Source: Desulfobacca acetoxidans DSM 11109 (lineage in GTDB: Bacteria; Desulfobacterota; Desulfobaccia; Desulfobaccales; Desulfobaccaceae). Taken from it: DNA of 64,000 nucleotides. Positions 14,188 through 45,236 of this stretch are shown here, piece after piece. The notes under the pieces were generated by a model. The model ran no database searches, had not been told where the DNA came from, and worked only from the letters and a program-made list of their open reading frames with translations. Both the position numbers and the translations under genes were made by a program. Location of the stretch: NCBI RefSeq assembly GCF_000195295.1, contig NC_015388.1:806001-870000 (forward strand), read 5' to 3'. Positions within the stretch are counted from its first letter, which is position 1. Each line of letters starts with the position of its first letter.

Positions 14188-14215
14188 TCAGTAATGGTCT
14201 TGTTCCATAAGTTTT

Positions 14216-14730
14216 CATGTTTTCAGGAAGACAACGAGACATGAGAACAAGTTGGCCTGAGGAGCAATTGTTTTTTTCTACCCACGGCTCACAGCTCACG
14301 GCTCACAGCTCACGGCTCACGGCTCACGGCCCACAGCTCACGGCTCACGGCTCACGGCCCACGGCTCACGGCTCACGGCTCACGGCCCACGGCCCACGGC
14401 TCACGGCTCACGGCTTACAGCTCACGGCTCGCGGCTCACGGCTCACGGCTCACGGCCCACGGCCCACGGTTCACGGCCCACGGTTCACGGCCCACGGCCC
14501 ACGGTTCACGGCCCACGGCCCACGGTTCACGGCTCGCGGCTTACGGCTCGCGGCTCACGGCTCGCGGCTTACGGCTCACGGCTCACGGCTCACGGCTCAC
14601 GGTTCACGGCTCACGGCCCACGGCCCACGGTTCACGGCTCACGGCTCACGGCTCACGGCCCACGGCTCACGGCTCGCGGCTCACGGCTCACGGCCCACGG
14701 CTCACGGCTCACGGTTTTCATATATGTAAG
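14216..14730 (+). repeat. Hairpin-bounded element carrying a ~62-copy 7-bp tandem array
   Basis: Positions 14281-14714 are a continuous array of 7-bp units, mostly GGCTCAC with variants GGCCCAC, GGTTCAC, AGCTCAC, GGCTCGC and GGCTTAC. The array is framed by a head (14216-14249, CATGTTTTCAGGAAGACAACGAG then ACATGAGAACA) and a tail GTTTTCATATATGTAAG (14714-14730). ATGAGAAC (14241-14248) can pair with GTTTTCAT (14714-14721). Head, a short GGCTCAC array and tail recur in the opposite orientation at 27684-27795, so this is an expanded member of a dispersed family. A 170-codon open frame crosses the array only because 7-bp units give a 7-residue protein period. Confidence 0.75.
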
Positions 14731-27650: not shown

Positions 27651-27690
27651 AACTTAATTTCTGGCCGATAACCGGAAACCGGAAACTTAT
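27651..27690 (+). repeat. Dispersed heptamer-containing repeat (copy 3)
   Basis: TTAATTTCTG is followed by AACCGGAAACCGGAAACTTAT, the same order as at 555-600. It leads directly into the hairpin element that starts near 27684. Confidence 0.55.
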
Positions 27691-28143
27691 ATAAAAACAG
27701 TGAGCCGTGAGCCGTGAGCCGTGAGCAGCGAAAACATTATTGTGAGCAGCCGCCACGATTCTGTTTTTATGCTTCGTTGTGTTCGGCAGAACATGTGGAC
27801 TTATATGGAAACAGTGCTCTTAAAGACGGCGGGCGCGGCCCGCCCTATGAGTAAATTGCCAATAAATTATCGATAATGGGATAGGGCGTCCCATGGCCGC
27901 CGCTTTTGTTTAACTTGGTCGATGAGAAAAAATTTATATGAAAACAGCGAGCAGTGAGCTGAAAAAGCATTATTGTGAGCAGCCGCCACGGTTCTGTTTT
28001 CATATTTCGTTGTGATCACCAGAACATGCCAATTTGTATGAAAGAAGGTGGTGCAGGCTTTGCAGCCGGCACGCTGATGCACAGGCCAGGAGGCCTATGC
28101 CACCAATCATTCTTTCATGCTTCGTTGTGTTCGGCAGAACATG
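27684..28143 (-). repeat. Cluster of hairpin-bounded modular repeats
   Basis: Three complete modules and one half module lie in the gap between pyrE and the tetraheme cytochrome gene. On the minus strand each begins CATGTTCTG..GAACACAACGAA-like (middle copy TGGTGATCACAACGAAA), then a stem arm, a variable insert and the opposite arm. Stem pairs on the plus strand are TATAAAAACAG 27690-27700 with CTGTTTTTATG 27761-27771; TATGAAAACAG 27937-27947 with CTGTTTTCATA 27994-28004; and ATGAAAGAA 28038-28046 with TTCTTTCAT 28110-28118. Sequence changes in one arm are matched in the other. A left arm alone (27802-27814) heads an insert with its own palindrome (27841-27888). Two inserts share TTATTGTGAGCAGCCGCCAC. 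Confidence 0.75.
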
Positions 28144-28152
28144 ATGACTTTT

Positions 28153-45119: not shown

Positions 45120-45236
45120 CACCTGCAAACCATGAAAATCAATTGTCAGCAGCACAAGCTTTCTAGCCTGTGCCGTTGTTAATTTCTCAATAACTCAATA
45201 ACTCGGAACTTGGAACTTGGAACTCGAAACTTATTT
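45120..45236 (+). repeat. Inverted flanking repeat, right copy
   Basis: The repeat carries the 22-bp identity with the left copy (45120-45141), then AGCTT, GCCTGTG and TTAATTTCT, followed by 7-bp units (CAATAACT, then GGAACTT twice and GGAACTC) and CGAAACTTATT. It fills most of the 300-base gap between the DHS-like gene and the thioredoxin gene. Compared with the left copy at 37684-37774 it is longer by its heptamer run. Confidence 0.65.

Follow-up and report, generated by a model that had tools for sequence, protein, structure and literature searches.

Cargo-bearing hairpin repeats in Desulfobacca acetoxidans resemble an undescribed family of mobile elements

The genome of Desulfobacca acetoxidans carries about 150-190 copies of a small, two-hairpin repeat, four of which lie in the 64,000-nucleotide stretch analyzed here (the window; bases 806001-870000 of the 3,282,536-bp, single-contig genome). 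The copies constitute a mobile family that uses a fixed target and makes no target duplication, and they look like an undescribed family of mobile hairpin repeats whose moving enzyme we did not find. The initial annotation of the window had read the local copies as an unnamed, selected nucleic-acid fold with modular inserts. The fold, the modular cargo and the absence of a name are all supported by our analysis; a hint that the direction of neighboring genes matters is not, and that reading missed the mobile, dispersed nature of the repeat, its defined ends and its fixed TAYAAG target.

Three consecutive units, each with a head, a paired stem, a variable insert and the opposite arm, had been described, and we recover them on the minus strand at 27686-28147 with the stem arms originally quoted. 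Unit 1 (28033-28147, 115 bp) has the linker TCAT and a head at 28143-28121 with the loop TGCC; its stem consists of the 5' arm ATGAAAGAA (28118-28110) and the 3' arm TTCTTTCAT (28046-28038), which enclose a REP-like cargo (B), and the unit ends in CATACAAA. Unit 2 (27933-28032, 100 bp) belongs to an older subfamily, with the linker TTGG, a head at 28028-28006 that has the loop TGGT and one T-T mismatch, arms ATGAAAACAG (28003-27994) and CTGTTTTCAT (27947-27938) around cargo A, and the end CATATAAA. Unit 3 (27686-27799, 114 bp) is of a young subfamily, with the linker TCCA, a head at 27795-27773 with the loop TGCC, arms ATAAAAACAG (27770-27761) and CTGTTTTTAT (27700-27691), a cargo A that contains 7-bp repeats, and the end TATATAAG. 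Between units 2 and 3, also on the minus strand, lies a headless module (27800-27932) that contains TTTTTTCTCATCGACCA, a REP-like palindrome and a second 3' arm, CTGTTTCCATATAAG. Elsewhere in the genome many older units are followed by the same module, and the resulting 233-bp spacing is seen both in the window and at other loci.

The fourth proposed member is also real. It occupies 14212-14730 on the plus strand (519 bp), 3' of the target ATAAG (14207-14211), with a divergent head at 14216-14238 and a 3' arm, GTTTTCAT, followed by ATATGTAAG. Its cargo (14283-14714) is an array of 61.7 copies of the 7-bp repeat CACGGCT. The array reads as a 170-codon open frame with a 7-residue repeat (14217-14729, plus strand), which an annotator could call a protein. 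A short tandem repeat of another 7-bp unit, AACTTGG (4.7 copies, 45200-45232), lies outside the hairpin family.

Read in the orientation of the head, a unit consists of a T-NNN linker, the CATG head hairpin, CAACGAA, two bases, the 5' arm, the cargo, the 3' arm and TAYAAG. The head hairpin has five pairs and a loop of usually four bases, the 5' arm begins with ATGAAA or similar, and the cargo sits in the loop of the second hairpin, giving a typical length of about 100-120 bp. In D. acetoxidans the cargo takes several forms, namely 7-bp repeats (CTCACGG, TTACCTC, GGCGTAG) with fixed parts and REP-like palindromes, and other species carry quite different cargo. A 7-bp periodicity, found in several cargo types of D. 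acetoxidans, was rejected as a general property of the family, being absent in other species. The linker and the head loop change together (TTGG or TTGT with GGTGATCAC; TKCA with TGCC or TCAA), and subfamily descent is the sole cause that we name for this. Several older units (at 1612102, 1616724, 517057 and locus L016) share a longer upstream block, TAGCGATTGCCAAAAGTC, which also occurs in a congener and may mark where a longer ancestral element once ended.

Folded as RNA, unit 1 greatly outperforms shuffled sequence on either strand (z of -4.9 and -3.9), units 2 and 3 fold more weakly (z of about -1.3 to -3.8), and DNA folding parameters return identical helices for the units. The initial annotation took the differences among the local stem arms as compensatory change. 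Across species this holds beyond both shuffled and slid controls, whereas the differences among the three local units are mostly those between subfamilies, and the local change from ATG/CAT to ATA/TAT passes through a G-T intermediate. We scored 40 distinct sequences, using only the end motif to locate the 3' arm. Pairing was seen in 88.5% of cells (80.9% when shuffled), double changes numbered 57 (21.2 shuffled), and the covariation score was 0.290 (0.155 shuffled), values that none of 500 shuffles reached in any of the three measures. Both helices covary, and the signal was lost when the partner arm was slid. Because shared subfamily descent inflates such counts, the replacement of whole helices between species is the stronger point: the head occurs as TGTTC/GAACA, TGTCC/GGACA or TGCCC/GGGCA depending on the species, and the stem as AAAACAG/CTGTTTT, AAAGAA/TTCTTT, AAACTA/TAGTTT, AAAGC/GCTTT or AAAAT/ATTTT.

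The heads are far more numerous than chance would allow: 149 occur in the genome at up to three mismatches, compared with none for the reversed pattern, and 91 heads in a 1.66-Mb unbiased sample extrapolate to about 180 genome-wide. A covariance-model search, as the initial annotation had suggested, traced the family through relatives. The model, R1, which was built on 45 positions, has at least 150 matches in D. acetoxidans, 1 in one congener and 0 in two others, 120 in a metagenome-assembled genome (MAG) of another family, 63 in a Desulfohalobiaceae MAG, and 10-22 in Desulfocicer, Desulfobacter, Desulfarculaceae and Desulfobacula. Since 149 heads here stand against one in one congener and none in two others, the expansion marks a recent, lineage-specific burst. 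At a strict threshold, 17 of 395 genomes drawn from Desulfobacterota gave a covariance-model match; a scan of all bacteria for the variant CATGTCC-NNNN-GGACACAACGAA returned 52 stretches, every one from Desulfobacterota; and relatives with the same frame and other cargo are spread across many members of the phylum. More tentatively, these units may represent an undescribed class that spans the Desulfobacterota, in which the enzyme would recognize the two-hairpin frame only, so that any palindrome or short repeat could become loop cargo, be exchanged between copies and be stacked in polar arrays.

Might the fold instead act in RNA, as a terminator, a processing site or a small RNA, with its spread secondary? 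The fold and its covariation would suit such a role, as would two terminator-like sites in the window cluster and the mismatches of the main stem, where non-Watson-Crick cells read on the head strand are G-T more often than A-C (40 and 18), which also hints weakly that folding occurs on the head strand. Against it, the window cluster contains no promoter-like site, Rfam offers no match, and copy number varies strongly between congeners. Placement is also informative. In the sampled stretches, where coding sequence makes up about 84% of the total, all but one of the clusters (64 of 65) fall between genes as called by a simple dicodon method. The direction that both loci of the window share with their flanking genes, noted in the initial annotation, turns out to be coincidence, as on unbiased genome stretches clusters are co-oriented with the upstream gene in 31 cases and opposed in 33, and with the downstream gene in 34 and 30. 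This lack of orientation preference speaks against a role in mRNA, and we consider an RNA element quite unlikely. Orientation relative to replication gave an apparent preference for the lagging strand, the bias that IS200-type insertion predicts, in the sampled blocks (46:19, p=0.001), but this did not hold outside them (19:24; 65:43 overall, p=0.043). We therefore do not use it as support.

On the left flank of first units, conservation is limited to TAYAART and sequence further out is near random, while on the right flank there is no conservation past AAG. The left and right hexamers are no more alike than shuffled ones (identity 0.494 versus 0.490), so TAYAAG does not represent a target duplication. 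The state of the site before insertion can be read from copies of host repeats that are unoccupied. The cluster at 3205524 lies inside a host repeat, 18 of whose 21 aligned unoccupied copies run ungapped across the junction of AATACAAG and ATTCGCCCC; for a second host repeat the same is true of 12 of 13 copies at the cluster at 1577429 and of the single copy at the cluster at 791166. At the cluster at 1075621, which matches a third host repeat, one or two bases are gapped at the junction. A composite at 523540 was rejected as an empty site, as it lacks the unit's 3' arm. Since unoccupied copies align straight across, the point of insertion lies immediately 3' of TAYAAG, and each unit supplies a further TAYAAG of its own. 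The left target and the right end co-vary by taxon, being TAYAAG in Desulfobacca, TATAA(C) in Desulfocicer and Desulfobacter, and (A)TTAA in Desulfohalobiaceae. A second dispersed repeat, GTAACACTTCAGTTGTTTGGGGCGAATACAAG-ATTCGCCCC (for example at 523507, 2324457 and 3105502), has TACAAG in a hairpin loop and is a landing site for units.

These junctions bear on whether the units are classical miniature inverted-repeat elements (MITEs), moved by the cut-and-paste reaction of a DDE transposase. Short, non-coding, intergenic and high-copy repeats are what such elements would look like; however, the outer ends here (the linker TNNN-CATG and TAYAAG) form no terminal inverted repeats, no target duplication accompanies the units, and the empty sites suggest the same. 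A MITE thus has a very slim chance of being the right description.

Within arrays, neighboring units differ in cargo class in 29 of 46 pairs, and thus the arrays are not simple duplications. Among arrays that contain heads of both ages, 10 begin with the older head and 2 end with it (p=0.039), and core mismatches are more numerous in first units than in last units (13 versus 4, p=0.049), a pattern consistent with new units having been inserted repeatedly at the 3' ends of those already in place. The window cluster is an exception to this order, having a young loop in its first unit. If the arrays arose by slippage or unequal crossing-over and needed no dedicated enzyme, this would explain their periods of 107, 114 and 121, which are set apart by the number of 7-bp repeats. 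Yet these processes account for cargo length and not for dispersal, a fixed target or arrays of mixed cargo, and we regard them as the least probable of the origins considered here. Taken together, a dispersed repeat with defined ends, a fixed target, no duplication and tandem growth implies that the fold probably serves mobility rather than a stable transcript.

How might such a unit move? Most likely, although we hold this with only about even confidence, it is a non-autonomous element that moves as single-stranded, hairpin-folded DNA under the action of an HUH-type (IS200/RAYT-like) enzyme. Such an enzyme, supplied in trans, would recognize both hairpins on single-stranded DNA, cut after TAYAAG on both sides, and join the unit 3' of a target TAYAAG; joining the ends of a single unit would produce a junction in which TAYAAG directly precedes TNNNCATG. 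Arrays would grow by further insertion because each inserted unit ends in TAYAAG, itself a target, and, with recognition confined to the frame, the loop cargo could vary freely. Of the known mechanisms, that of IS200/IS605 and TnpA-REP is the closest to a combination of hairpin ends and insertion 3' of a fixed short site (PMC6006769), and TnpA-REP enzymes are known to cut repeat hairpins next to a short guide (PMC6006769).

Searching for this enzyme by adjacency, through Y1 genes, reverse transcriptase genes and recurrent neighboring proteins, gave nothing. The three Y1 proteins of D. acetoxidans are weak, RAYT-like matches, and no heads lie within 1.5 kb of their genes. None of 57 Y1-transposase loci in 15 genomes is flanked by elements, and no more than two weak heads lie nearby; no heads accompany the canonical TnpA genes of carrier genomes, no GT[AG]G guide was seen, and one MAG with at least 22 copies, which may be incomplete, has no detected Y1 gene. 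The IS91-type profile PF04986 matched nothing anywhere, controls included, and so carries no weight either way. A four-helix-bundle gene family near some heads was set aside as a local repeat unlinked to the elements. Many near-identical whole or partial copies of one gene, resembling that for the 23S rRNA intervening-sequence (four-helix bundle) protein, lie at 3064.8-3066.5 kb and 3084.2-3086.6 kb, about 20 kb apart.

Two other kinds of enzyme can be weighed against the HUH model. First, a tyrosine or serine recombinase could exchange TAYAAG cores between a circular unit and its target and would likewise leave units flanked by cores and arrays with a polarity, without duplicating the target, as in integron cassettes and short-core integrative elements. 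This mechanism fits almost as well, since the units have TAYAAG on either side, carry variable cargo and form polar arrays, but the frame consensus lacks the RYYYAAC/GTTRRRY boxes typical of integron attC sites, the cargo is non-coding, and the units are dispersed instead of being collected at a single platform; we consider it unlikely. Second, spread through an RNA copy made by a reverse transcriptase would suit structured units in a genome that has two reverse transcriptase genes. However, carrier genomes show only two weak heads near such genes, one carrier lacks the genes entirely, and no tract or 5' truncation pattern was noted, leaving this route very unlikely.

REP, BIME and REPIN sequences and their RAYT (TnpA-REP) enzymes offer an obvious comparison, as they too are high-copy intergenic palindromes that form clusters and expand in lineage-specific bursts, and a Y1 enzyme acting in trans presumably handles them as single strands (PMC3116915, PMC6006769). 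Unlike them, the units described here are about 100-120 bp long, combine two hairpins with cargo, stand head-to-tail rather than in inverted pairs, lack a GT[AG]G foot or CGTC tag, and flank no transposase gene. The REP-like palindromes of D. acetoxidans lie beside its own RAYT and enter the hairpin family only as cargo or modules. At that RAYT locus (L012, 2760536-2763856) the gene is preceded by near-identical repeats of about 187 bp with GGGCGGCCCGCGGCCGCC palindromes, and similar palindromes appear as unit cargo or modules. CGTC-tagged REPs are likewise palindromic repeats without a dedicated transposase, but our units lack the tag, differ in size and architecture, and form head-to-tail arrays (PMC3733652). 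Non-autonomous derivatives of IS200/IS605 likewise have hairpins near both ends and insert 3' of a fixed short target that is not duplicated; here, in contrast, no related autonomous element was found, the cargo lies inside the right-hand hairpin, and there is no robust strand bias. Integron attC sites and cassette arrays resemble the family in their hairpin sites, variable cargo and polar array growth, whereas the consensus here has no attC boxes (by inspection), the cargo is not coding, and the units are dispersed. The BOX elements of pneumococci are modular non-coding repeats with constant and variable modules. Their sequence is unrelated, however, and in the present family cargo is exchanged wholesale and the stem co-varies.

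The earlier statement that no named element has this head stands: Rfam gave no match at the gathering score and nothing meaningful at a lax threshold (only SNORD46, E=3.9), the head sequence matched no relevant open-access paper, and we found no description of the element in the open-access literature. A term search of the D. acetoxidans genome paper returned four CRISPRs as its only repeats (PMC3156406). The units are of a known kind, small non-autonomous hairpin repeats; what is new is that a frame of two hairpins bears cargo, that it ranges across a phylum and that its enzyme is missing.

Small dispersed repeats account for an appreciable share of many bacterial genomes, and the enzyme that moves them is mostly unknown. 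The anatomy of this family is unusually readable, with a fixed frame, free cargo, a defined target, clean empty sites and polar arrays, and it makes repeat movement and cargo pick-up directly testable. It also calls for caution, in that 7-bp arrays read as open frames, and REP-like palindromes, can in these genomes be the cargo of a larger element.
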